NCBI GenBank assembly: GCA_937132085.1
Contig: CAKZNV010000219.1
Span: 1-44,191, forward strand
Source of the DNA: an uncultured Rubritalea sp.
GTDB taxonomy: Bacteria > Verrucomicrobiota > Verrucomicrobiia > Verrucomicrobiales > Akkermansiaceae
Length of the DNA: 44,191 nt
Direction: 5' to 3'
The notes beneath the pieces were generated by a model. It had not been told where the DNA came from, did no database searches, and saw only the letters and a program-made list of their open reading frames with translations. A program made the translations under genes and the position numbers. Position 1 is the stretch's first letter. The number at the start of each line of letters is the position of its first letter. Positions 1,771 through 39,329 of this stretch are shown here, in pieces.

Positions 1771-1886
1771 CAAGGTGATTAACAACTAGAAACACCTCAA
1801 AGAACAAAGGGAATCACCTATCGAGTTCTAAGAATATCACCAAAAGCTCCAATTCTGCATAAGGTCTAAGCACAGACGATCCCAGA

Positions 1887-1985
1887 TGGAAACCGCATGT
1901 CACTGACAAGTGTTGGTGGTTAATAATCATAAAGCTCACTTAGCTGGCGGCGTATCTGCGAATTGTCTGATGCGAATTGTTATGC
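1887..1985 (-). other. attC-like recombination site 1 (99 bp, divergent type)
   Basis: On the plus strand the left arm AAC CGCAT gt CA ct GACAA (1891-1909) pairs with the right arm TTGTC TG ATGCG aatt GTT (1963-1981). This gives GTT/AAC, 5-bp, 2-bp and 5-bp helices with asymmetric unpaired bases, as in attC sites. Its sequence is unrelated to the other four sites, but its end box GTTATGC matches the start box of its own cassette at 2399-2405. Confidence 0.7.
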
Positions 1986-1991
1986 TAAAGT

Positions 1992-2393
1992 CTATTTGAT
2001 AAACTTTTTAAGGGCTGGTTCACTCCTTAACATATAATCCCTAAATGCAGCTGAGTCTTCATTCTCTAAATCACAATCAAACACTAAAGTAACCACATGT
2101 TCTAGTATGTCGTCCTTAATCTCCATGCTAAAACTAAATTTAGCTTCACCTTTCTCAAAATGATAGCGAACTACTCCAATATTACTATCTGACCCTGAGG
2201 TATTTGACGGCGTATACCCCCCACTGACTGATTTCCACCCATGCCTTTTAGCATAAGAAAACATACCATCATAAAAAAAAGCAGTCTCGCCAACCTCATT
2301 GTGTTCTGGAACTTCAACCTCATGTGGTTCAGTCTTACTCTTACAATTTACAAGAAAAAGAACTGCTAAAAATAGTATGTGTCGTATATTCAT
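1992..2393 (-). CDS. Cassette-encoded lipoprotein, hypothetical
   Basis: This is a small predicted lipoprotein of about 133 residues. The signal sequence MNIRHILFLAVLFLVNC ends in a lipobox (LVNC), so it should be acylated and exported. The mature part is acidic at first (EVEVPEHNEVGE), then mixed, with FSYAKRHGW and a KKFIK C-terminus. I recognise no family. It is the last complete cassette of the array, followed by attC site 1. I start at the second ATG because the hydrophobic signal begins there. An ATG three codons upstream (2402) lies inside the core box GTTATGC and would add MLN. There is no Shine-Dalgarno sequence. Expression would depend on readthrough from upstream or a cassette promoter. 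Confidence 0.75.
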   Translation of the reverse strand: MNIRHILFLAVLFLVNCKSKTEPHEVEVPEHNEVGETAFFYDGMFSYAKRHGWKSVSGGYTPSNTSGSDSNIGVVRYHFEKGEAKFSFSMEIKDDILEHVVTLVFDCDLENEDSAAFRDYMLRSEPALKKFIK

Positions 2394-2398
2394 ATTCA

Positions 2399-2525
2399 GC
2401 ATAACGTCCTAGCATAGCCGACCCCACGGAGAGGGCGAACTTGGACGAAGAGGTTGAGGTTGTGGTTTGGTGAAAAGGCTACAAACAGAGCGCCGTGGTG
2501 GTCGGACTACTGCGCCTTGTTCGGT
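2399..2525 (-). other. attC recombination site 2 (127 bp)
   Basis: Plus-strand ends are GCATAAC (2399) and GTTCGGT (2519). The inner arms TAGCCGACCCCACGG and CCGTGGTGGTCGGACTA pair perfectly apart from two single-base bulges on one arm, the classic extrahelical bases of attC. Between them is a spacer of about 60 bases that varies between copies. It belongs to the SUKH cassette (2537-3040). Confidence 0.85.
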
Positions 2526-2536
2526 TTTTGGTTGAG

Positions 2537-3040
2537 TTATTCGTCTTCGAAATCTTGAATCACAATTGATTCGTAGAAGTCTGTAAAGGATGTAGCAGAT
2601 AGATAGAAATTCGCAAAGGCTTCATCTTTTTGAGGTAATTCTCCAACCCGACGCGTCTCAAGGTAATTTTTAAGTTCAGGGGCTAGATTAGGAAACATGC
2701 TACGGAACGTATCGTCATCCCAAGAACTTCGGCCGCCAATGTCATAATAATATACGTGACCGAATCGATCCTCCTCTAGACATAAACACGTCGAAGAACC
2801 AAAAAGATTGTCCCCGATGAAAAGCATTCGGGGTGAAGAAAAACCAAAGTATTCACTCTTGATGATCTCTTCGGCAGTATGAAGTAAATCAATTACCGCA
2901 CTATCTCCAAGGGGCGTAATCTCCTTGAGTGGATAAGTGGCATCTCCATCGAAGCCAGATTTGGTATGGGATGTTAGGAAAAGTTTGTAATCCTCAGGTA
3001 AGGATAAACCTAATAATTTTTCTATTGTCTCAGAGGGCAT
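2537..3040 (-). CDS. SMI1/KNR4 (SUKH) family protein, cassette-encoded
   Basis: This is a 167-residue cytoplasmic protein with the look of the SUKH superfamily. An N-terminal helix with IEKLLGLSLPEDYKLFL is followed by a glycine-containing turn (KSGFDGDA), a central strand region LFIGDNLFGSSTCLCL, then FGHVYYYD, and a C-terminal FLSAT/FTDFYES helix. In bacteria such proteins often neutralise secreted toxins of polymorphic and contact-dependent systems, or act as stand-alone regulators. No toxin gene lies beside it, as is usual for immunity genes in cassettes. The cassette runs from the core GTTCGGT at 3049-3055 to the matching ACCGAAC box at 2519-2525, and the ATG lies about 9 bases inside it. 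No Shine-Dalgarno sequence is evident. Confidence 0.75.
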   Translation of the reverse strand: MPSETIEKLLGLSLPEDYKLFLTSHTKSGFDGDATYPLKEITPLGDSAVIDLLHTAEEIIKSEYFGFSSPRMLFIGDNLFGSSTCLCLEEDRFGHVYYYDIGGRSSWDDDTFRSMFPNLAPELKNYLETRRVGELPQKDEAFANFYLSATSFTDFYESIVIQDFEDE

Positions 3041-3048
3041 AAATTTTG

Positions 3049-3175
3049 ACCGAACGTCCTAGCATAGCCGACCCCACGGAGAGGGCGAACTTTGACGGAG
3101 GTGTTGAGGTTGTAGTTAGGTGAAAGCGCTACAAACAGAGCGCCGTGGTGGTCGGACTACTGCGCCTTGTTCTGC
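3049..3175 (-). other. attC recombination site 3 (127 bp)
   Basis: This site is nearly identical to sites 2 and 5 in both arms, with the same two bulged bases, and differs mainly in the central spacer. The end boxes are ACCGAAC (3049) and GTTCTGC (3169). It terminates the cassette of the exported protein at 3204-3611. Confidence 0.85.
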
Positions 3176-3203
3176 CATTTTTATTGATTTCGATATAGTA
3201 GGT

Positions 3204-3611
3204 TTACTGTGGTTCGTCTTGTTTTTCAAGTATTGGAATCTGCGAATTCATGAGACGGCTAACTCTTACTGCTAAAAGTAATTGAGTATCAGTTAATTCT
3301 TTCTGTTTGGTAAAAGCGGTCATTATTGTCGGTAAATCCATTGCGTGTTTACTAAAAAGAGCAAAATTCCCTTTGAGTTCTTCTTCTAATCTCTTCCTTG
3401 GGAAAGCGTTATCTTTGAATGTGAATGGTGAAAGAAATAGAGTTATCATCTCTGCTCCTTTCTGTCCCTTTTCTACTTTGGGTATGGTAATGCCAGTTGT
3501 CATTTCGAGAACTGTCTTTAACTCTTTACTAGAAATCTGCTCGGCTTGTAATTGAGAAACACTAATGAAAAGGAAGAAGAGTAAAATCTTGGAAGGCTGA
3601 ATGATGTTCAT
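3204..3611 (-). CDS. Small exported hypothetical protein, cassette-encoded
   Basis: This is a 135-residue protein with an N-terminal signal peptide (MNIIQPSKILLFFLFISVSQLQA, cleavage near residue 23). The mature part is helical and charged (KELKTVLEMTTG, RKRLEEELKGNF, MTAFTKQKELTD). No known domain is seen. The open frame continues upstream to 3641, but those extra residues would be encoded by the attC stem, so I start at the ATG in the TAAAAATATG leader (3611). This leader begins two bases from the cassette core GTTATGC and recurs in front of several genes here. The gene ends before attC site 3. Confidence 0.7.
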   Translation of the reverse strand: MNIIQPSKILLFFLFISVSQLQAEQISSKELKTVLEMTTGITIPKVEKGQKGAEMITLFLSPFTFKDNAFPRKRLEEELKGNFALFSKHAMDLPTIMTAFTKQKELTDTQLLLAVRVSRLMNSQIPILEKQDEPQ

Positions 3612-3618
3612 ATTTTTA

Positions 3619-3744
3619 GCATAACGTCTTAGCATAGCCATCCCAGACGGGAGGGCGATGGTGGACTTGTAGTTTAGGTGTTGAGTAGCGTAAAAGCTGC
3701 GGTAACAGGCGCCGTGGTGGTCGGACTACTGCGCCTTGTTCGGC
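3619..3744 (-). other. attC recombination site 4 (126 bp, hybrid)
   Basis: The right half (3709-3744) matches sites 2, 3 and 5 exactly, but the left inner arm differs (TAGCCATCCCAGACGG instead of TAGCCGACCCCACGG), so the central stem is poorly matched. The end boxes are GCATAAC and GTTCGGC. It belongs to the cassette interrupted by the IS30 element. Confidence 0.75.
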
Positions 3745-3760
3745 ATCTTGGATTCATAGA

Positions 3761-4782
3761 GTAAGTGCAACGCTTAGCTGTTCTCTAACAGCTAGGCATA
3801 ATATACTAATTATTATGGCACATTACAAGCACCTAACTTATGAAGAAAGAAGTATTATCGGACACCTTAGAATTCGCTGTTTATCGTTGCGAGAAATAGG
3901 ACGCAGGATGAATAGAAGCGTCTCTACTATCTCGCGTGAACTAAAGCGTAACAATCAAAGTCAGGATGGTCGTTACAGAGCCTCTCACGCCGATTCGAAT
4001 TATAACGCTCGAAAGAAGCGTGCGAGACGAGGGACTAACTTCAAAAAGAAAGAGTGGAGCCTAGTAATCGACTTACTAGCCAAGCAATATAGCCCTGAAC
4101 AGATATCTGGACGTTTAAAGCTAAAAGGTAAGCTCAGCATTAGTCATGAAACGATCTATAAATACATCTGGCATGACAAGAAATATGGTGGAGAGCTTTA
4201 CCTGCATCTAAGGGGAGCTATGAAAATACGGCGTAAACGCCACAACAGCCAGGACAGTAGAGGTCGCTTAGCCGGAAAGAAGATGATTGATAGTAGACCC
4301 AGCGAAATAGAAAAGCGGCTAAAAGTTGGGCATTGGGAGATAGATACTGTGCATGGCAAAGGTAAGAGAGCCATTGTGACGCTAGTAGAACGAGCAACAG
4401 GTTACGTGATGATTGGGCAGCTAGACTCTAGGAAAGTAGTAGATTTGAACAGCCGAACATCGAAGCTAATCAATCGTAAATCTGAACACTTCAAGACGAT
4501 CACGGCAGACAATGGGGTCGAATTCCACGGCTATAAGAAGCTAGAAAAGAGGCACAAGCTGGCTGTCTATTTTGCTTACCCTTACCACTCCTGGCAGCGA
4601 GGAACAAACGAGAATACGAATGGCTTAATAAGACAATACTTACCGAAAGGCTGCAGCATGGAAAACTTGACTCAAATAGAGTGTAATTCGATCGCTAGAA
4701 AACTGAATAATCGCCCACGAAAAAGATACGGATACCAGACACCATTAGAGATGCTAGAAAAACTGACTAGTGTTGCACTTCC
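3761..4782 (+). mobile_element. IS30-family insertion sequence (about 1.02 kb)
   Basis: A complete IS30-type transposase gene is bounded by imperfect inverted repeats. GTAAGTGCAAC at 3761-3771 faces GTTGCACTTCC at 4772-4782, and 20 of 27 terminal positions match in inverted alignment. A perfect 8-bp hairpin (TAGCTGTT 3775-3782 / AACAGCTA 3787-3794) lies just inside the left end and may block outside transcription. No clear target duplication is seen. The element sits between a cassette gene (4812-5213) and its attC. Confidence 0.8.
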
Positions 4783-4789
4783 AGCTTGA
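3815..4789 (+). CDS. IS30 family transposase
   Basis: This 324-residue DDE transposase moves the surrounding element by cut-and-circle transposition. The N-terminal helix-turn-helix (about residues 8-45, LTYEERSIIGHL to ISRELKRN) matches the IS30 DNA-binding region. The catalytic triad is D177 in GHWEIDTVHGKG, D232 in TADNGVEF, and E266 in GTNENTNGLIRQYLPKG. Length and motif spacing are complete, so it is probably functional. The frame runs seven bases past the apparent right inverted repeat, so the last codons and the TGA stop come from the flanking cassette DNA. It is the only plus-strand gene in the first 13 kb. An AT-rich, promoter-like stretch (CATAATATAC) precedes the ATG. Confidence 0.95.
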   Translation: MAHYKHLTYEERSIIGHLRIRCLSLREIGRRMNRSVSTISRELKRNNQSQDGRYRASHADSNYNARKKRARRGTNFKKKEWSLVIDLLAKQYSPEQISGRLKLKGKLSISHETIYKYIWHDKKYGGELYLHLRGAMKIRRKRHNSQDSRGRLAGKKMIDSRPSEIEKRLKVGHWEIDTVHGKGKRAIVTLVERATGYVMIGQLDSRKVVDLNSRTSKLINRKSEHFKTITADNGVEFHGYKKLEKRHKLAVYFAYPYHSWQRGTNENTNGLIRQYLPKGCSMENLTQIECNSIARKLNNRPRKRYGYQTPLEMLEKLTSVALPA

Positions 4790-4811
4790 TACTAGGCAAT
4801 TTTGTTGTGTT

Positions 4812-5213
4812 TCATTTTGTTGAGATTTCTTCAACTATTAGACGCCAATCTATAAACCAAGAATGAATCAACTCATTCTCAGAAGCTGTAAACTTAGGAT
4901 ATGAATTTATTACTCTCAAGCAAGCATCTAAAGTAGCACTCAGCAAAACTCTATCCATAGATTCATTAGGTAAACTGCTGAACTCTAGGTTATCTCCATA
5001 TCCTACTTCCACTTGATAAATATTATCTGAATTGGCAACTACTCGAAAATGTTCAGTGTTGTTTCCTATCAGAGTTATCATAAGGCAATAGTCTTCTTTC
5101 TGACCTATATTGAGATCTTGAAAAGATTTCATCATCTCACTTAATCTTTGTGATACTCTAAAATCAGCTTTTCTAGATTTTCTGGTTGCGATGCCTGTGA
5201 GTGAGAGTTCCAT
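4812..5213 (-). CDS. Hypothetical cassette-encoded protein
   Basis: This 133-residue protein has no signal peptide and is probably cytoplasmic. It shows mixed alpha/beta character: a basic N-terminus (RKSRKADFRVSQRL), a strand region (YCLMITLIGNN, YQVEVGYGD), and a helical C-terminus with HSWFIDWRLIVEE. I do not recognise the family. The two-layer look fits small immunity-type proteins, but this is only an impression. The cassette starts at the core GTTCTCC (5226-5232). The IS30 element has inserted just past the stop, between the gene and attC site 4, so the coding part is intact while cassette excision would now carry the IS as well. Confidence 0.65.
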   Translation of the reverse strand: MELSLTGIATRKSRKADFRVSQRLSEMMKSFQDLNIGQKEDYCLMITLIGNNTEHFRVVANSDNIYQVEVGYGDNLEFSSLPNESMDRVLLSATLDACLRVINSYPKFTASENELIHSWFIDWRLIVEEISTK

Positions 5214-5225
5214 TTCTTATTTTTA

Positions 5226-5352
5226 GGAGAACGTCATAGCATAGCCGACCCCACGGAGAGGGCGAACTTTGACGAAGGAGTTGAGGTTGTGGTTAGGTGA
5301 AAACGCTACAAACAGAGCGCCGTGGTGGTCGGACTACTGCGCCTTGTTCGCT
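5226..5352 (-). other. attC recombination site 5 (127 bp)
   Basis: This is the same type as sites 2 and 3. The ends are GGAGAAC (5226) and GTTCGCT (5346). The latter is identical to the start core of its cassette (5868-5874, complement AGCGAAC). The last codons and the TAG stop of the cassette gene lie inside this site. Confidence 0.85.
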
Positions 5353-5861
5353 TGCTGAGATTTTGATAGAGTTACCCACAATCTTGGGAATTCTTTTATT
5401 ATGAGAGGAGCGGTCTTCTGTGGATTGTCATCACCTCCATATTCAAATAAAAATGCGTCTCGGACTGCGGTTTTAGATGGCTTATTAAGTAGTTTTGCCG
5501 CTTCGTTGATAAAGTCATCTCCGATCAATTTTGCTACGCGAATCAATGTGTTAGTGTATCCTTCTGCTCCTGCTCCATCTAATGGCGCATTCTCTGCCAT
5601 CCACAGTAATAAAAAAACCGAGCTGCGTTTTTGTTTTTCATTACCTTTAAGTGCCTGTTCTAATAAAACAGGAAAATCAATACCTATATCAGAAGCCATT
5701 CCATTAAGATCTTTATAATTAACGGCTTCTTTAGATATTTCGTGAGTAAGCTTCACCTCTGAAGATCTCCATCCTTGTGCGTTTGAAGTAATAGTAGAGG
5801 TAGCCAGAGTGATTCCAAAGCATATACACGGGATGATAGTTAGAGTTGGAAAAGGTATCAT
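5334..5861 (-). CDS. Exported hypothetical protein, cassette-encoded
   Basis: This 175-residue protein has a signal peptide (MIPFPTLTIIPCICFGITLATS..., cleavage near NAQG). The mature part is helical, with NEKQKRSSVFLLLWMAENA and a YTNTLIRVAKLIGDDFINEAAKLL stretch (positions about 110-133) that resembles a HEAT-like or armadillo-like repeat, though I cannot name a family. I start at 5861 rather than the longer frame at 5891 because the upstream residues cross the cassette core site and the TAAAAAAATG leader is typical here. The C-terminal residues ANKAQ and the stop are encoded by attC site 5. It is the first recognisable cassette on the 5' side. Confidence 0.7.
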   Translation of the reverse strand: MIPFPTLTIIPCICFGITLATSTITSNAQGWRSSEVKLTHEISKEAVNYKDLNGMASDIGIDFPVLLEQALKGNEKQKRSSVFLLLWMAENAPLDGAGAEGYTNTLIRVAKLIGDDFINEAAKLLNKPSKTAVRDAFLFEYGGDDNPQKTAPLIIKEFPRLWVTLSKSQQANKAQ

Positions 5862-6122
5862 TTTTTTAGCGAACAGTATGTTAGTCGTCAATTAGCGGAT
5901 GCTTGATTGATGAATTTGGGTTAGGAATTGGGTGTTTGGTTTGTTTACAGTCGGTTTGTTATTAATTAGTTGTAGTCTGGTTGTATCAGGTGCTTTTACA
6001 AGTATATTTTTGTGAAGACTTATTGATAGTTTACGTATCGGAAGCAGCTGATATGATGTTTTGGAAATATTGATTTTATGATATGAAGTCTTATCATATC
6101 ACTATTTCAAGTTTACTTAACC

Positions 6123-6563
6123 TTAGTCATGAGTTTTATTGATTCTTATCAATATTCTTTCATTAGTTGGGTCATAAGATCCAGAAATAATAATATCATA
6201 ATATTTCGTCGGTTCTATGGATTGTGTCGTTCCTAATGATAATGAAAAATAAGCTAGATCATCGTCAAACTCGGTCACTGAACGATCCGTAAAGTCATAA
6301 GAAAATTTCGATTTACCTAATTTCTTGAGATCTGATAAGAAGCCGTCCGCAAACACATCATATTCAGCTTTAGTCATCTTCAAAAGCAAGATTTCATCAG
6401 AGCTGTTGTATATCTCTTTGTCTTTGAATTCATGCATTCTCAACTTCAGAACATCAACTACGTCCTTAGCTTCCATCTCCACTCTAGGTTTGGCCGGAGG
6501 AGTTTTCCGAGTAGAGCATGAGACTGAAAACAGTCCGATGATGATAAATATTAGAGTTTTCAT
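6123..6563 (-). CDS. Hypothetical lipoprotein
   Basis: This is a 146-residue predicted lipoprotein. The signal MKTLIFIIIGLFSVSC ends in lipobox FSVSC. It is followed by a proline/lysine linker (STRKTPPAKPRVE) and a globular part with KAEYDVFADGFLSDLKKLG, paired strands (KFSYDF, YFSLSLG, YYDIIISGSYD) and an IRINKTHD tail. No known family is recognised. It lies 5' of the attC array, in the same direction as the cassettes, and is separated from the first core site (5868) by about 250 bases in which I find no attC fold. The leader ACTAAAAATG again lacks a Shine-Dalgarno sequence. Confidence 0.7.
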   Translation of the reverse strand: MKTLIFIIIGLFSVSCSTRKTPPAKPRVEMEAKDVVDVLKLRMHEFKDKEIYNSSDEILLLKMTKAEYDVFADGFLSDLKKLGKSKFSYDFTDRSVTEFDDDLAYFSLSLGTTQSIEPTKYYDIIISGSYDPTNERILIRINKTHD

Positions 6564-6625
6564 TTTTAGTATTACTATCTAGAGGGCATCTATCTTTACA
6601 CAGTCGTGAGTTAAAGAGAAGAGGT

Positions 6626-8068
6626 TCATTTAGATTTTCCAGAAGTAGCGGGTTGGGCGGACTTTTCTTGTTCGCCACTTGGAGGTGTCTCGACCCAAAC
6701 AAAGTCCATAGCGTTACATTGTAGAAGTTTAGCCGGTGATTTCCAGCGAACTACTTGCTTCGTTAACAAGTCGCCGTAGATGAATACATCTGCAAGCGGT
6801 CCCTTTCGCGCTTTATAAAAAATGTGCCGTCCGTCTGGTGATACACCAGCTATACAATCCGAATGATTGGGTTTGTCCTCCAGTATCCCTAAGTGCAACA
6901 AGAATGCCGGAGCCAAACCACTACGTCCAAAATGATCGAAATCCCCAAACGAATCACGAAGATACTCAGGCACTAGAACACCATCAAGATGAGTTCGTTC
7001 TTTAGATAGGCGTAGCACATGTGGTGTGACTGAGGAGGTGACTTTTGCAGTCTCAGAGTTAATACTCCAAACGCGATCTTTAGATACATTTTCTCCCTGC
7101 CTAGCTCGAAACAATAAATTCCCCTCATCAGAAAACTTCAATGTAGTGCCAGTAGGAATCACTGCTATGCCACTGCCAGCCCTTGCAAAAAACTCAACAG
7201 GATGAGAAATATCTTCTAGTATTCCATCTCTCTGCAGAATCAGCTGACCAGTAAGTTTCCCTCCGTTCCAATTATATGGAGGAGAGGCGAGCAACAATGC
7301 TCGTTTCTTGCCGTCATTCGATACTATCGATTCTGAGTATCCAGACCTAGGTCGTTTGACGCGTCGAAAACTGCCGATATATTTTAGATCTTTGCGATCA
7401 TAGCTCCAGCAATTTTCATCTCCAGGTTTAGTAACCATCCAGAAATCGCCCTTCGCTTCTATTGGAATAAAAGGCACTTCTTCACTGATTTCCCCCGATG
7501 TCTTATCAATGACAATCCATTTGTCAGTAGATTTGCAGTAAATTGAATCGCCTATCACTCCAAACGCGGAAACCTGACGACCTTGACTCAAGCAGTCAAC
7601 TTCCCATGTTCGAAAATCAATATCATACAAGTTTACATCGTATCTCCCTAGCTCGCTATCGACCTGAAGCCTAATGAAGCGTGGATATAAGCCATCACTA
7701 TGATACCTAGATAAGAAGCTCAACAACGGTGTAGCATTCCACGAAGAATGACAAAACTCCACACGTTTTGTGATAGGTCGGTTCGGTAGCGTAGGAATAC
7801 ACTCCCAAGCTCCGGCGATAAAGTCCCATTGCTTACCCACTTGCTCACGGGTAAAAATGACGAACTTTCCAGTGCCAGGTTTAGATTGCTCCGCTAGCGC
7901 TGGAGGGAATGTTTTAAGAATCGGAGCTTGTCCTTGTGGAATAGCACCTTTCCCTACTCCAACAACTACGCTAAAACTCAACACTACTACAACAGTAAGA
8001 ACATCAAACACTCTACGCAAAGAACTGAATAAGAAGGACCTTGTAACTTTATGTGAGATATATTTCAT
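6626..8068 (-). CDS. Secreted hypothetical protein, possible beta-propeller
   Basis: This 480-residue protein has an N-terminal membrane/signal segment (about residues 20-42, VLTVVVVLSFSVVVGVG). The rest reads as repeated short beta strands ending in WD-like or propeller-like units: WIVIDKTSGEI, CWSYDRKDLKYIGSF, SIVSNDGKKRALLLA, NLLFRARQGENVSKDRVWSI, AGVSPDGRHIFYKA, DVFIYGDLLTKQVVRWKSP. The SPDGRHIFY-type motifs resemble TolB/WD40-like propellers. A role cannot be assigned. The C-terminus is a low-complexity EQEKSAQPATSGKSK tail. It is longer than a typical cassette gene, and no attC was found next to it. Confidence 0.65.
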   Translation of the reverse strand: MKYISHKVTRSFLFSSLRRVFDVLTVVVVLSFSVVVGVGKGAIPQGQAPILKTFPPALAEQSKPGTGKFVIFTREQVGKQWDFIAGAWECIPTLPNRPITKRVEFCHSSWNATPLLSFLSRYHSDGLYPRFIRLQVDSELGRYDVNLYDIDFRTWEVDCLSQGRQVSAFGVIGDSIYCKSTDKWIVIDKTSGEISEEVPFIPIEAKGDFWMVTKPGDENCWSYDRKDLKYIGSFRRVKRPRSGYSESIVSNDGKKRALLLASPPYNWNGGKLTGQLILQRDGILEDISHPVEFFARAGSGIAVIPTGTTLKFSDEGNLLFRARQGENVSKDRVWSINSETAKVTSSVTPHVLRLSKERTHLDGVLVPEYLRDSFGDFDHFGRSGLAPAFLLHLGILEDKPNHSDCIAGVSPDGRHIFYKARKGPLADVFIYGDLLTKQVVRWKSPAKLLQCNAMDFVWVETPPSGEQEKSAQPATSGKSK

Positions 8069-8157
8069 GTTTTCGTATCTGATTTTACTCTAGTAGTGTG
8101 TTTCTACTAAATAGGGATTTTGGTTACAGCTAGTTGAGTGAAGGTTGAGTAGATTGG

Positions 8158-8802
8158 CTACTGGGACTTATCCTGCAGTTGTGATTCTTTTATTTTTGAC
8201 CAATCAGTATAGTCCAATTTCATTTTGCCATCCACTACCTTAGCATCCACGGTGATCATGGGTGATATTTTGTGGAGCCAGCGAAAGCTGTTATTATTTG
8301 CAGGAACTGGAGCATCTTTGATTTTATCCGTAAATATTTTCATCGGAGCTTCGTAAAAATGGATCAGCACTTTTTCGGCGTTTTTGTAATAATCAGAGCC
8401 TTTTACTTCGATCGTATTTGCCTCTCTGATGAGCCCATCGATACATTTCAGCTTAGTCGTAGTTTCGTTTGTGAGGATATGCTTACAGACTGAAAAACTG
8501 AATCTATTGGAAGTCGGCAGATAAATGATGGGTTCAGGTCTACTGAAAACAAGTAGCGTTCCTATCTTTGGCTTTTTAGGTTGGTAATAAAACTCTTCAT
8601 AATCCCATAGCAGCTTACCATTGAGATAGTGTTGAAAGCGCATTACGAACGTTGTCGTTTTCGTAGTCTTATGAACAATATCCCATTTTCTGATACCTAG
8701 ATCCTCAGGTGTTAGGGTTTTACTTCTAGTGACAGATTCCTCTGCACAGAGATGTGAAGAGGAGACAATTAGTAGACTTAGTAGAGTGAATAGATTTTTC
8801 AT
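8158..8802 (-). CDS. Exported hypothetical protein
   Basis: This is a 214-residue protein with a clear signal peptide (MKNLFTLLSLLIVSSSHLCAEE, cleavage near residue 20). The mature region contains many aromatic beta-type segments (WDIVHKTTKTTTFVMRFQHYLNG, residues about 40-62; LLWDYEEFYYQPKKP; NRFSFSVCKHIL; IHFYEAPMKIF). It ends with DYTDWSKIKESQ. No family is recognised. It is the middle gene of the same-strand orphan block, with an A-rich leader GCTAAAAATATG and no Shine-Dalgarno sequence. Confidence 0.7.
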   Translation of the reverse strand: MKNLFTLLSLLIVSSSHLCAEESVTRSKTLTPEDLGIRKWDIVHKTTKTTTFVMRFQHYLNGKLLWDYEEFYYQPKKPKIGTLLVFSRPEPIIYLPTSNRFSFSVCKHILTNETTTKLKCIDGLIREANTIEVKGSDYYKNAEKVLIHFYEAPMKIFTDKIKDAPVPANNNSFRWLHKISPMITVDAKVVDGKMKLDYTDWSKIKESQLQDKSQ

Positions 8803-8859
8803 ATTTTTAGCTGGTTGTTCGTAAACTCTTTTAGAGTGAGAACGATGGAGATACTTTGA

Positions 8860-9252
8860 TTAGATTTTATTCGCTGAGTTCACTGCGATTACTTCAGATT
8901 TGTTTTGCTGTTTTTTAAAAGCTTGAGATTTCTTTTCATTCTCACGATTTATTCGAATCCATGAAGAAATGATTAAGAAAATTGGTGCTGATATAAGGCT
9001 AACAAAAAACAACCTATCGTAACGCGATAACCCCTTGTAAACATTATCAAACTTAGCAGCTATCATCGCTCTGTCCACTGAAGAGACTTCATGATGAGTT
9101 TTATAAACCAACTCGGATTCTAAGTTTCGTAATTCACCCTTTATTAGCCCATCGTTTTTTCTGATAACGACAAAAACCAAATTATAGATCATCATCACAC
9201 CTGCAATAGTATGAAATATTATATGTGAATTACGTCGTATTTCTTTTAGCAT
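8860..9252 (-). CDS. Two-helix membrane protein, hypothetical; possible cassette gene
   Basis: This 130-residue protein has two probable transmembrane helices (about residues 11-29, HIIFHTIAGVMMIYNLVFVV, and 81-98, LFFVSLISAPIFLIISSW). They are joined by a helical, charged loop (RNDGLIKGELRNLESELVY region), and a lysine-rich C-terminal tail follows. No family is recognised. The start codon lies inside GTTATGC, the same core box that opens two cassettes of the attC array, with GTTATGCTAAAA in common. I cannot find a matching GCATAAC box or attC fold downstream, so cassette status is unproven. Confidence 0.6.
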   Translation of the reverse strand: MLKEIRRNSHIIFHTIAGVMMIYNLVFVVIRKNDGLIKGELRNLESELVYKTHHEVSSVDRAMIAAKFDNVYKGLSRYDRLFFVSLISAPIFLIISSWIRINRENEKKSQAFKKQQNKSEVIAVNSANKI

Positions 9253-9276
9253 AACAGTTTCATTTGTCGTTATTTG

Positions 9277-9295
9277 CCTGTCTCATTTTGACAGG
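9277..9295. terminator. Hairpin CCTGTC-TCATTTT-GACAGG
   Basis: A 6-bp perfect stem with a 7-base loop lies in the gap between two orphan genes. No strong T-run follows on either strand, so terminator function is weakly supported. Its core TGTCTCATTTTGACA recurs exactly at 10065-10079, over the stop codon of the lipoprotein gene there. Confidence 0.35.
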
Positions 9296-9418
9296 GTTAA
9301 CTGACGGCTAAGATGTATAATATTGATTTCATTATTTTAGTATGGCTAAAGTCTACTAATTAAGGGCACTTAGTCTTTGGTTTTATTGATTCTTATCCAA
9401 TGCGCTCCTCCATATTAA

Positions 9419-9964
9419 TTACTGATTTATAAATCGAGTATGAATCTCTGTCGAGTTCAGTAGAGCCACTGATTTTTCCTTCAACTCATAATCAGAATCA
9501 GTTAACCAGATAAGAATAATGCTGTCCTGTAATGAGTTAAAAAAACCTTCATCCTTTAGTTCTTTTAGAACGCTCAACGTATCACTATGAAATTTTTTAA
9601 TGTATTGGATTTCATCTTCATCAAATTCAAAATCATCTCTTTCATTTTCATGAACAGCTTGAAATTGCTCATTCAATGACTCTATCTCTGCTGAAACTAG
9701 CTCAAATGGATCAGCTTCCCAGCCTCTCCATTCGTCTGGCGACAGTCTGTATGAATCGATCGGGTTAGATAAATCGGATTCTCTATTATACAATCCCACA
9801 GGCTGCATTTCATCGTAGCTCTCACCTAACTGAATAGCATAGCCATATAAATCATTGTTGGCAGCAGTCAATTCAGTGATGTGATTGATTACCGCTTCTT
9901 TTAGTAATAATTTAAACTTAGTGTGATCTTGATCCAGAAAGGATTTTAATTTCTCTTTGCTCAT
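9419..9964 (-). CDS. DUF4303-like protein
   Basis: This 181-residue acidic cytoplasmic protein has no signal peptide. An N-terminal helical region (LLKEAVINHITELTAANNDLYGY) leads into a strand with YAIQLGESYDEMQPVGLYNRES. Then come the conserved-looking YRLSPDEWRGWEADPFELVS and a C-terminal domain rich in Asp/Glu (DDFEFDEDEIQYIK, IILIWLTDSDYELK). The layout, a helical start followed by a glycine-containing strand and a PxEW-type motif, resembles DUF4303 proteins. These often sit with SUKH-type and other immunity genes. This is a family-level impression from memory, not a search result. Confidence 0.5.
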   Translation of the reverse strand: MSKEKLKSFLDQDHTKFKLLLKEAVINHITELTAANNDLYGYAIQLGESYDEMQPVGLYNRESDLSNPIDSYRLSPDEWRGWEADPFELVSAEIESLNEQFQAVHENERDDFEFDEDEIQYIKKFHSDTLSVLKELKDEGFFNSLQDSIILIWLTDSDYELKEKSVALLNSTEIHTRFINQ

Positions 9965-9983
9965 ATATTTTTAAGGTTAATAG

Positions 9984-10063
9984 TTTAGTATAGCACCCCC
10001 TAACGGGAGAACGAACTTGGATTTTTTGGGATTTCTATTCTTCTTAGCTTATTGGTTCTAGCG
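9984..10063 (-). other. Degenerate attC-like remnant
   Basis: GTTTAGTATAGCACCCC followed by ACGGGAGAACGAACTTGGA aligns with the left half of attC sites 2-5 (ATAGCCGACCCC, ACGGAGAGGGCGAACTTTGA) with several mismatches. The right half (GTGGTCGGACTACTGCGCC in intact sites) is not recognisable. It lies between two orphan genes on the 5' side of the array, where an older attC would be expected. Confidence 0.4.
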
Positions 10064-10068
10064 CTGTC

Positions 10069-10914
10069 TCATTTTGACATCACTGTCTTTGAATAAAATA
10101 CATCGCTTAGAACAGCAAAACCATCTGAACTTATTTTTAATTTAGCCAGTTCGGGTTTAATCTTCGCATACAATTTCGGCTTAGACACTACATTCTTTGC
10201 TGCCTGAGCATAACTATTCTCTAGACTCTTAAAATGCTCTTCCATTTCAAGAAAAACTATATTTCCAGTATGATTATCAGGCTTCCCTATCTTTTTTAAG
10301 ATTATGACATCTGACTTCAACCGCTCTGATAATTTCGAGATTAGGCTTAATAAATCGTTACATGAGTTATCATCACTCACTTGGCAAAGAGCACCCCACA
10401 TTTCTCGATTCATTTGTTGCTGAATAAGCATTACTGAATAGTGAGAGTCTCTCCCTATTTCAACGCTAACAAGATGATCACCATACATCACATCACAAAA
10501 ATTCTCTAATCTAGTAAGTTCAAAGTTTATGTTTTTAAATGATTCCTTATGCTCAGAGTCATCTGGATTCTTTAAATAAATGTTCTTCAACAATTTAAAA
10601 GAGGGCTTACTATTCTTCCTATTGTATTCAATTATTTCTGCCCTGACACTAGCCCTGACACTCTCATCTGCAACTTTAAGTGTTTTAAGTTTATTGTGTA
10701 ACAATTGTAATTCTGACTCCAATTTTTTAATGCTAGATGAAGTTTCCTCATCTTCGATATCAGATACAATCACTCCTAACTTGTTCACTACCAACTTTAA
10801 TTCATTCAGCAATTCTTTGTGGCTTTCATAACCTTCAGACTCATTTGAATTTGGCTTTTTTGAACAAGACACGATAAACAAGAAGCTGAGTAATGCATAG
10901 TTGATCATCTTCAT
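10069..10914 (-). CDS. Hypothetical lipoprotein, helical
   Basis: This 281-residue predicted lipoprotein has the signal MKMINYALLSFLFIVSC with lipobox IVSC. The mature chain is strongly helical and charged. Residues about 30-80 (HKELLNELKLVVNKLGVIV..., LESELQLLHNKLKTL) look like a coiled coil. A cysteine-containing middle section (FCDVMYGDH, ALCQVSDDNSCNDLL) follows, and then another helical part. No family is recognised. It is the most upstream of the minus-strand orphan block and directly faces the 3' end of the DedA-fusion gene, marking the border of the accessory region. Confidence 0.65.
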   Translation of the reverse strand: MKMINYALLSFLFIVSCSKKPNSNESEGYESHKELLNELKLVVNKLGVIVSDIEDEETSSSIKKLESELQLLHNKLKTLKVADESVRASVRAEIIEYNRKNSKPSFKLLKNIYLKNPDDSEHKESFKNINFELTRLENFCDVMYGDHLVSVEIGRDSHYSVMLIQQQMNREMWGALCQVSDDNSCNDLLSLISKLSERLKSDVIILKKIGKPDNHTGNIVFLEMEEHFKSLENSYAQAAKNVVSKPKLYAKIKPELAKLKISSDGFAVLSDVFYSKTVMSK

Positions 10915-10991
10915 ATTGCATATCTTTTACATGTATCCTTAATTAGATCAATCCATTTCAGACAAGTTTTGAAAACTTCCATTTCTAGACT

Positions 10992-12701
10992 CTAAACCTC
11001 ATAACGATCCTTCTTACCGTGCTTACGTATAAGCTGGATCAGGTCGCTTAGGGTCATTGGGCTGTGGCCTCTTGAGAGGTTTTGTCTTCCGCATTCCACG
11101 GCGGAGCGCCATTGGTGGAACATGGCTTTCCAGGCTTCTAGGAGTGAGAATCCTGGCTGGTAGATATGGGCTGGCTCAGCAGTCACTCCGTTCAGCTCTA
11201 ACACATGGATGCCTTCTCCACGCTGGAATGCCTCTAGGCTATCCACTCGAATATCATATCTGCCAATGTGGAATCCATCGAATGATCGGCTCAGCGCATC
11301 GATACTCTGCTCCATCGCTTCAGTGACTAGATGCCTGTCATCGGTAAACATGGCTCCTCGGCAATGCGTGCCAATTTCAGCTAGTGCGATGCGTTTCCCC
11401 TTCTCAGGAATTTCATTGAGTCGCTCAGCGAACTTTTCCTTATAGAAACCAAACATGGCAGCACCTCGGTCATCGGCTAGGATGAGATCTTCTAGTCTCG
11501 TCTCACCATCGCCTATCACACATTGCTGATGTTTCTCTGAAAGCGATATGATCTTGCCGTGTTCTTCATCTGGGTAACGCAGGTAGTAGACTCCATACTC
11601 GGGTCCACTGATGAATTTCTGGCCAATCACCTCTTCACGACACTCGGTGAGATACTCCGCAGCTTGTTCTCTGGATCTAATAATCGCCACTCCCTGGCCA
11701 CGTTCGCCTTCATCTGGCTTTAGCACCACAGGGTATTCTAGCCCCTGCTCAGACATCCATTTTTCTAGTAAATCAATGCGGCTAGCTTCGCTCATCGGCA
11801 TCCTTAGGTAATCCGCTACTTTCTCGGCTTGGACACTATCGGTAGAGAGTAGATCTAGGATCTCTCCTTTACTATCATAAGCAAACCCACTGCTCTCGAT
11901 CACGGGATTAGAGCTAGTAAACAGGCACCAACGGCCATTTCTGTAGCCAAGATAAATCAGATAAACGATGACTGGAGGATAGACCATCCACATCGGCCAA
12001 TACTCCCAGCGAGACAGTCTCTGCCACTTGCCATAGAGTCTGCGTCTGCCTGCCCAGCTAAACATCGGTAAAATGATTTTCAGCAACAGCCAGATAAACA
12101 ACGCCGCACCTAACAGACCGATCCAAGCGTAATCCGCATAGCTGGCTAACCAGCCTTTCACTGCATCGCCAGCAAAATACGCTAGCCCACCTAGAATCGG
12201 CACCCAGATCAATGCTGCTAGAAGTAGAGTCAGCGAGAATTTCCAAAAATTCCAGCCACTAGCACCAGCTGCTAGATAACTCACCACACGTGACCCTGGC
12301 ATAAATCTCGATAAAAATATCCACAGCACACCATAACGATCAAAAAACCTCCTACCTCTGGCTATCTTCTCAGCAGTGACTCGTCTACTCGCCCAGCGGC
12401 GAAACCAGCCTAGCTTCTCTGCCTCTCCCCCAGTGGTAGTCATCACTGCCAGCCTGCCTAGCCAATACACACCCATATCTCCGATCCAAATTCCTAGCAC
12501 ACAGCCAGTCATTGCCAGTGGAAACGTGATATTCCCCTGAGCAGTCAGCACACCTGCGAAGACGCAGGTAAGATCTTCCGAGACAAACGTCCCCAGAGCA
12601 AGCATCAACACCTTGAGAACTGGGTGATCCACCAAGTTCACAAGTCCTTCAATATTCTCAACACCGAATCCTCCTAGCGTATTTAATATTAGCCAACTCA
12701 T
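10992..12701 (-). CDS. DedA-family membrane protein fused to C-terminal ATP-grasp domain
   Basis: This is a 569-residue two-part protein. Residues about 25-215 form a DedA/VTT membrane domain, with the acidic pair E42-D43, an FLSRFMPGSR motif (129-138) and several transmembrane helices. DedA proteins handle lipid carriers and envelope homeostasis. A further transmembrane segment (236-252) leads to a cytosolic ATP-grasp domain (about 310-530). Its features are the nucleotide-binding stretch VVLKPDEGERGQGVAII (325-341, K328), GRYDIRVDS (480-488) and the metal-binding-type ELNGVTAEP (502-510). The second half resembles carboxylate-amine ligases such as D-Ala-D-Ala ligase-type enzymes, but the substrate is unknown. 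Start at the first ATG; no obvious operon partner. Confidence 0.85.
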   Translation of the reverse strand: MSWLILNTLGGFGVENIEGLVNLVDHPVLKVLMLALGTFVSEDLTCVFAGVLTAQGNITFPLAMTGCVLGIWIGDMGVYWLGRLAVMTTTGGEAEKLGWFRRWASRRVTAEKIARGRRFFDRYGVLWIFLSRFMPGSRVVSYLAAGASGWNFWKFSLTLLLAALIWVPILGGLAYFAGDAVKGWLASYADYAWIGLLGAALFIWLLLKIILPMFSWAGRRRLYGKWQRLSRWEYWPMWMVYPPVIVYLIYLGYRNGRWCLFTSSNPVIESSGFAYDSKGEILDLLSTDSVQAEKVADYLRMPMSEASRIDLLEKWMSEQGLEYPVVLKPDEGERGQGVAIIRSREQAAEYLTECREEVIGQKFISGPEYGVYYLRYPDEEHGKIISLSEKHQQCVIGDGETRLEDLILADDRGAAMFGFYKEKFAERLNEIPEKGKRIALAEIGTHCRGAMFTDDRHLVTEAMEQSIDALSRSFDGFHIGRYDIRVDSLEAFQRGEGIHVLELNGVTAEPAHIYQPGFSLLEAWKAMFHQWRSAVECGRQNLSRGHSPMTLSDLIQLIRKHGKKDRYEV

Positions 12702-39141: not shown

Positions 39142-39215
39142 TACGCCCGTAGGGAGTCGAACCCCAAACCTCCTGATCCGTAGTCAAGCGCTCTATCCAA
39201 TTGAGCTACGGGCGC
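39142..39215 (-). tRNA. tRNA-Arg(ACG), copy 1
   Basis: The 74-nt cloverleaf has acceptor GCGCCCG/CGGGCGT (one G-U pair), D-arm GCTC...GAGC, anticodon stem CTTGA/TCAGG around loop CTACGGA (anticodon ACG, read as ICG), and T-arm TGGGG/CCCTA with loop TTCGACT. The discriminator is A. No CCA is encoded. The sequence is identical to the second copy 114 bases away. Confidence 0.93.
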
Positions 39216-39255: not shown

Positions 39256-39329
39256 TACGCCCGTAGGGAGTCGAACCCCAAACCTCCTGATCCGTAGTCA
39301 AGCGCTCTATCCAATTGAGCTACGGGCGC
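39256..39329 (-). tRNA. tRNA-Arg(ACG), copy 2
   Basis: This gene is identical over 74 bases to the tRNA at 39142-39215, with the flanking AAAAATA and CCTT also shared. The tandem pair suggests a recent local duplication that raises dosage of the CGN-reading arginine tRNA. Confidence 0.93.

Follow-up and report, generated by a model that had tools for sequence, protein, structure and literature searches.

Integrons are recorded in a list of phyla that includes Verrucomicrobiota, in the part of a review available to us that also proposes origins for clusters of attC sites lacking integron integrases (CALINs; PMC8618304). Two kinds of mobile element are described at attC: IS1111-attC elements, insertion sequences (IS) found at one end of cassette attC sites (PMC11187229, in the part consulted), and group IIC-attC introns, which enter attC at its R'' region, opposed to cassette transcription (PMC7923331, likewise). 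Here we analysed a stretch of 44,191 bases (the window), which is the entire contig C219 of a Rubritalea-like draft genome (4.46 Mb, 254 contigs, 98.7% complete). An earlier examination of the letters alone, hereafter the sequence-only reading, had proposed that positions 1887-5874 are a CALIN. Our analysis points to an integron cassette array at 1857-5874 that has no integrase on its contig and carries an inserted element of an IS30 group that would recognize attC, a joint reading to which we assign a probability of roughly 0.85. The IS30 element is the part of the array most worth following.

The minus-strand sites of the window are attC sites

The sequence-only reading described five attC-like sites between minus-strand genes, and these sites (s1-s5, Table 1) are real attC by stem pairing, covariation and matches beyond the seeds of our models. 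The stem, written by hand as 21 designed positions, pairs throughout in s2, s3 and s5, and less completely in s4 and s1. The three complete sites each leave three bases unpaired, all on the R''/L'' arm, which we take to be the same arm as in known attC sites. In the alignment, s4 has a 5' arm as in s2, s3 and s5 and a divergent 3' arm, a pattern that would probably make it a chimera.

A covariance model built from 17 sites of the genome recovered the five window sites at E values from 1.9e-33 to 3.3e-15, with no other match in the window below E 0.29; the five are among its seeds, and fairer tests therefore lie elsewhere in the genome and genus. Our samples comprised 12 genomes of the genus including the source, 98 genomes of genus, family and order for the integron integrase (IntI), 386 of the order and 387 of the phylum. 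A model built on the five sites alone gave at least 32 matches at E<=1 across 16 contigs of the genome (the five seeds and 27 others), a count that is a lower bound because 150 of 561 first-look candidates were scored. In at least three of these matches (on contigs C230, C221 and C186) an IS30 end replaces the 5' arm. At E<=0.01 the same model found matches in 11 of the 12 genus genomes, that is, in 10 of the 11 others, with none in G004; the covariance-model check that the sequence-only reading had proposed thus favours the sites. Over the 17 genome sites, two-sided changes occur at 13 of the 21 pairs, against a mean of 4.6 after shuffling (0 of 500 shuffles reach 13), and structures slid along the same alignment gave at most six such pairs; because this alignment was fitted to the stem structure, the result is biased towards that structure.

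Two observations weigh against the sites. First, s1 and s4 are damaged, the R' box of s1 reading CTT where GTT is expected. Second, the folding energy of the sites is no better than that of dinucleotide shuffles on either strand, with the exception of s4 on the plus strand (z -2.22, reached by 5 of 200 shuffles). Folding of the bottom strand had been suggested as a check and gave a divided answer: the plus strand (for the cassettes, the 'bottom' strand) is more stable than the minus strand in all five sites, but falls below shuffles in s4 only. Given the long loop, the folding energy of a single site is an uninformative test of attC.

The logic of cassette start and end boxes is a sign, independent of covariation, that the sites exceed chance. 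The sequence-only reading had noted that the start boxes GTTATGC, GTTCGGT and GTTCGCT match their own end boxes, and indeed three of the five window cassettes match fully: a (GTTCGCT, with s5) by eye, and d (GTTCGGT, with s2) and e (GTTATGC, with s1) by box count. The boxes of cassette c differ at one base (3/4), and those of cassette b, which is interrupted by the IS, agree at 2/4; among the four cassettes that run from site to site, two match fully and one at 3/4. When a match was defined as identity at all four variable positions, start and end boxes agreed in 33 of 51 cassettes from 13 arrays in four genomes (the source, G011, G006 and G005), whereas 2,000 permutations within genomes gave a mean of 4.9 matches and a maximum of 14. 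Four arrays were left out of that count, three of the source genome (C156, C221 and C230) and one of G003 (contig C6); together they add one full match in six cassettes, for 34/57 overall, and the three from the source genome, which have sites broken by IS30 among them, contribute 0/4.

Two A-rich stretches also recur in different cassettes at the cassette ends of the window and of loci L144-L149: a leader, TAAAAAT, directly following R', and a trailer preceding R''.

An IS30-family element lies beside attC

The inventory of the array in the sequence-only reading had missed the insertion at 3747-4796. The transposase of this element matches Pfam family HTH_38 at 60.7 bits (cut-off 27) and rve at 29.3 bits (below the cut-off of 32.6), and PLSDB annotates its relatives of ISVa6 type as IS30; on these protein matches we place the element in the IS30 family. 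At E<=0.01, Pfam returned no DEDD family for the transposase, so it is not of the IS110/IS1111 type. Read outward, the left end gives GAATCCAAG and then ATGCCGAAC, and AAGTGCAAC is found near both ends by eye. The left end lies 2 nt outside the 7-nt R'' box of s4, GCCGAAC, which is left whole.

The source genome contains eight further right-end pieces of this element, a ninth match (C203) being a different IS30. In six of the eight, a cassette trailer and the opening letters of R'' come next, as read by eye; the piece on C221 is unclear, and that at C156:3388 lacks this continuation. The attC 3' halves in which the IS30 right end stands in place of the 5' arm lie at C230:33754-33892, C186:3071-3191 and C221:11721-11844.

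A profile from four transposases identified 24 loci in 18 of the 386 order genomes. The systematic test of position used left ends only, which were readable in 16 of these loci. Ten of these 16, among them the window element, have AAC at nucleotides 7-9 outside the left end (9 nt to the last base of AAC), a fixed triplet at a given position having a chance of about 1/64. Beyond the IS, eight of the ten show attC-like pairing to a degree matched by no more than 3 of 200 shuffles. The phylum sample added one more family, G515, with AAC at this position in both of its two elements. In a plasmid collection, where 253 records matched, the top matches come from Vibrio, in elements labelled IS30 or ISVa6 at 50-53% identity. 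Four Vibrio records searched for all copies yielded 19, and with left ends assigned by coordinate, 14 of these have AAC at nucleotides 7-9, while one further copy lies at such an attC with a shift of one base. The attC sites beside the Vibrio copies are presumably of the VCR (Vibrio cholerae repeat) type. Orientation relative to attC, judged from left ends, is the same in all counted cases. In a tree of 27 transposases, all 13 attC-inserted rows fall in one group of 17 (support 99/98), the remainder of which consists of G387 and G172, neither at attC, and two rows whose end could not be read; the ten rows beyond this group comprise eight away from attC and two unreadable ones. Members of this IS30 group are thus found recurrently at one position and in one orientation beside attC. 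None of the five loci listed, of seven in G576, G665 and G612, is at attC, and no attC was seen at the IS30 elements of Teredinibacter and Pseudoalteromonas.

Several observations argue against recognition of attC by the element. Among the ten order elements with AAC, those of G049 (contig C4; 48/200 shuffles) and G379 (97/200) fail the pairing test. Six of the 16 order elements lack AAC at this position, although only G387 and G172 of these are inside the transposase group, and G172 pairs well (4/200 shuffles) though without AAC. Four of the 19 Vibrio copies lie away from attC, and flanks are common to some of the Vibrio copies, which reduces the number of independent events. Finally, a perfect 3-bp duplication accompanies only 6 of 16 copies (14 of the 19 Vibrio copies, the window and G022) at the borders CTTAG and CCAAG, the best of 63 border settings, and the window element has none (CAT / CAA); copies without a perfect duplication may have recombined.

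An alternative is that the IS30 elements reached attC fortuitously, or through the tolerance of arrays for insertions, with no recognition of a target. Cassette arrays are dispensable, and copies within one array, flanks included, may have spread by recombination. However, the distance from the IS end to AAC is constant in every counted case of the order, G515 and Vibrio, across different attC sequences, whereas tolerance alone would spread insertions throughout the cassettes, and we regard this explanation as unlikely. We consider it reasonably probable instead that the IS30 branch shared by Verrucomicrobiota and Vibrio is attC-specific. From the position of its members we infer that such an element would recognize attC and insert, in a single orientation, 2 nt outside R''; attC would stay intact and the IS would join the cassette, so that a cassette made of gene, IS and whole attC could be moved by an integrase with the IS as its passenger. 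It would then be a further kind of attC-targeting element, unrelated to IS1111-attC and group IIC-attC introns. The literature that we searched, with ISfinder and most subscription journals outside its scope, describes no attC-targeting IS30 group. If the proposal is correct, an IS30-type element reads an integron recombination site at single-base precision, which raises the questions of whether the transposase recognizes attC as folded DNA and of how selfish elements ride in cassette arrays. The array by itself is a well-supported verrucomicrobiotal case, integrons of this phylum being already published.

Integrases on other contigs and the origin of the array

The genome search gave no integron integrase match on C219, a contig that begins at window base 1. 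The statement in the sequence-only reading that no intI is visible therefore holds for the contig but not for the genome, in which two proteins, both on other contigs, exceed the cut-off of the integron integrase family TIGR02249 (265 bits): one of 322 amino acids (aa) on C18, at 376.1 bits, and one of 424 aa on C24, at 347.1 bits. Absence of any integrase, which that reading had named as an argument against its proposal, is accordingly not what the genome-wide search returned, and the case illustrates how a finding of 'no integrase' for a single contig can conceal integrases on others. The best solved relative of both proteins is V. cholerae IntI4 (2a3v; E 7.8e-72 for C18 and 9.9e-71 for C24), and in alignment both have an insert between the core boxes, which we take to be of the IntI-specific type. 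We call the source genome Rubritalea-like because the named relatives of IntI in a protein scan, at 80-84% identity, come from metagenome-assembled genomes of uncultured Rubritalea and Verrucomicrobiales.

On both C18 and C24, intI points away from minus-strand cassettes that lie to its left. Boxes match at 4/4 in the site-to-site cassettes (one on C18, two on C24) and, by eye, in the first cassette after the attI-like stretch of each contig; in the window, CTAACATACT ahead of the start box of cassette a resembles, again by eye, the end of the C24 attI-like stretch. One C24 attC scores 137.7 bits on the five-site model, compared with 145-149 bits for s2, s3 and s5; judged by this likeness, the window sites share the type of the intI-bearing C24 array.

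Above the cut-off, IntI occurs in 45 of the 98 genomes sampled for it, the source included. Two types are seen, one of about 322 aa and one with open frames of about 420-540 aa; the C24 protein (L012:2813-4087) has an N-terminal extension of about 100 aa. Parts of group II introns (RF00029, RF01998) lie on array contigs at L011:8-76 (C18) and L044:324-471 (C50), and the intron end on C18 is followed by a cassette trailer, as in group IIC-attC introns (junction read by eye). Genome G006, which has 14 attC hits in one array (L142:8399-19627, on its contig C2) and no IntI match above the cut-off (best partial at E 8.6e-24), exemplifies attC in the absence of IntI more strongly than the window does.

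Five clustered attC sites, where two or more define a CALIN, together with the box logic and the lack of intI on the contig, support the CALIN reading. Cutting and rejoining of cassettes by IntI is established for integrons. For the array, we infer that the cassettes most likely were put in place by an IntI encoded at another locus of this cell, or were separated from it by a rearrangement; the C18 or C24 protein could act in trans on the intact sites predicted here, cutting and rejoining cassettes. Insertion at attG (Loot et al.) might also be considered as a source of the scattered sites.

Alternatively, the array might be a piece of an intI-bearing integron that draft assembly has separated, and no CALIN in the cell. 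The contig starts at window base 1; a copy of the same IS30 terminates C24, a group II intron end terminates C18, and assemblies break at repeats such as these. Yet on C18 and C24 intI is to the right of the minus-strand arrays, and to the right of the window array are 38 kb without intI, which makes this alternative improbable. That the five sites are ordinary intergenic repeats and not attC, for which the unremarkable folding energy of whole sites could be cited, is scarcely credible in view of the box logic, the covariation and the same sites adjoining two IntI genes.

Extent of the array and neighbouring features

To the right of 5874, further minus-strand open reading frames (ORFs) continue up to a DedA-type gene at 10992. 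Cassette-like starts occur among them (GTTATGCTAAAAG at about 9252), as does an attC-like 3' half that the sequence-only reading had overlooked (Table 1). The 17-site covariance model found no complete attC in 5900-10950, which probably consists of decayed cassettes; the attC-like 3' half suggests that the array once extended to about 10.9 kb.

The same gene order conserved by vertical descent would have spoken against a cassette array. At the DNA level, 5400-10950 has no match at E<=0.001 in the 11 other genus genomes and thus gives no sign of vertical conservation. Among the other genus genomes, DedA has a match at E<=1e-60 in G003 alone, where no attC match at E<=0.1 was found in the 15 kb around the DedA gene; the neighbouring genes there differ from those of the window, so comparison with an empty site gave no conclusion. 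Among the collected loci, the only matches listed for homologues of the cassettes fell on L223, the locus of the window itself, with nine window-overlapping loci left out of the list.

Left of the array are two pairs of direct repeats, 1-84 / 440-523 (99% alike) and 685-785 / 1669-1769 (96% alike), the second of which includes TTGTTAT close to an R''-like box. A 207-aa ORF at 864-1487 has no Pfam match, and its C-terminus carries what we take to be a PEP-CTERM-like signal. A tandem pair of tRNA-Arg (ACG) genes lies at 39142-39215 and 39256-39329, and an Rfam scan of the window gave nothing beyond these two tRNAs.

Table 1. Features of the cassette array and its continuation in the window.
Feature	Position	Strand	Details
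attC s1	1857-1985	-	R'' GCATAAC; R' altered to CTTATGC; 14/21 pairs
Cassette e ORF	1992-2402	-	136 aa; without Pfam match; boxes 4/4
attC s2	2399-2525	-	21/21 pairs
Cassette d ORF	2537-3040	-	167 aa; SMI1/KNR4 (SUKH-1) family, PF09346, E 7.4e-10; boxes 4/4
attC s3	3049-3175	-	21/21 pairs
Cassette c ORF	3204-3611	-	start after R' box (longer ORF to 3641); without Pfam match; boxes 3/4
attC s4	3619-3744	-	16/21 pairs; probably chimeric
IS30-family element	3747-4796	+	separates cassette b from s4; 2 nt outside R'' box
IS30-family transposase	3815-4789	+	324 aa
Cassette b ORF	4812-5213	-	133 aa; without Pfam match
attC s5	5226-5352	-	21/21 pairs
Cassette a ORF	5334-5861	-	175 aa from ATG after start box; without Pfam match
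Cassette a start box	5868-5874	-	GTTCGCT, read by eye; first cassette with complete attC
Probable decayed cassettes	5900-10950	-	orphan ORFs, cassette-like starts, attC-like 3' half at 9968-10022

Comparison with described systems

The window array resembles CALINs and sedentary chromosomal integrons, as the consulted part of the review presents them, in its attC-bounded cassettes mostly of unknown function, its conserved attC sites and the lack of a nearby intI; it differs in that the source genome has two intI genes elsewhere and an IS30 element beside attC (PMC8618304). A close described relative of the IS is ISVa6 of Vibrio, for which the accessible part of the source mentions no attC target (PMC4572688); the window transposase is 52.8% identical to that of V. 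anguillarum and 52.2% to that of a V. campbellii record. ISVa6-type Vibrio copies lie at the same 9-nt distance to the attC AAC. With IS1111-attC the window element shares a place at one end of a cassette attC, but those elements, in the part of the report consulted, use a DEDD transposase with a seekRNA, whereas ours has HTH_38 and an integrase-core match (PMC11187229). Group IIC-attC introns likewise insert at the R'' region and opposed to cassette transcription; as described in the part of the source available, they are ribozyme retroelements and not IS, and intron ends are also present in the source genome (PMC7923331).

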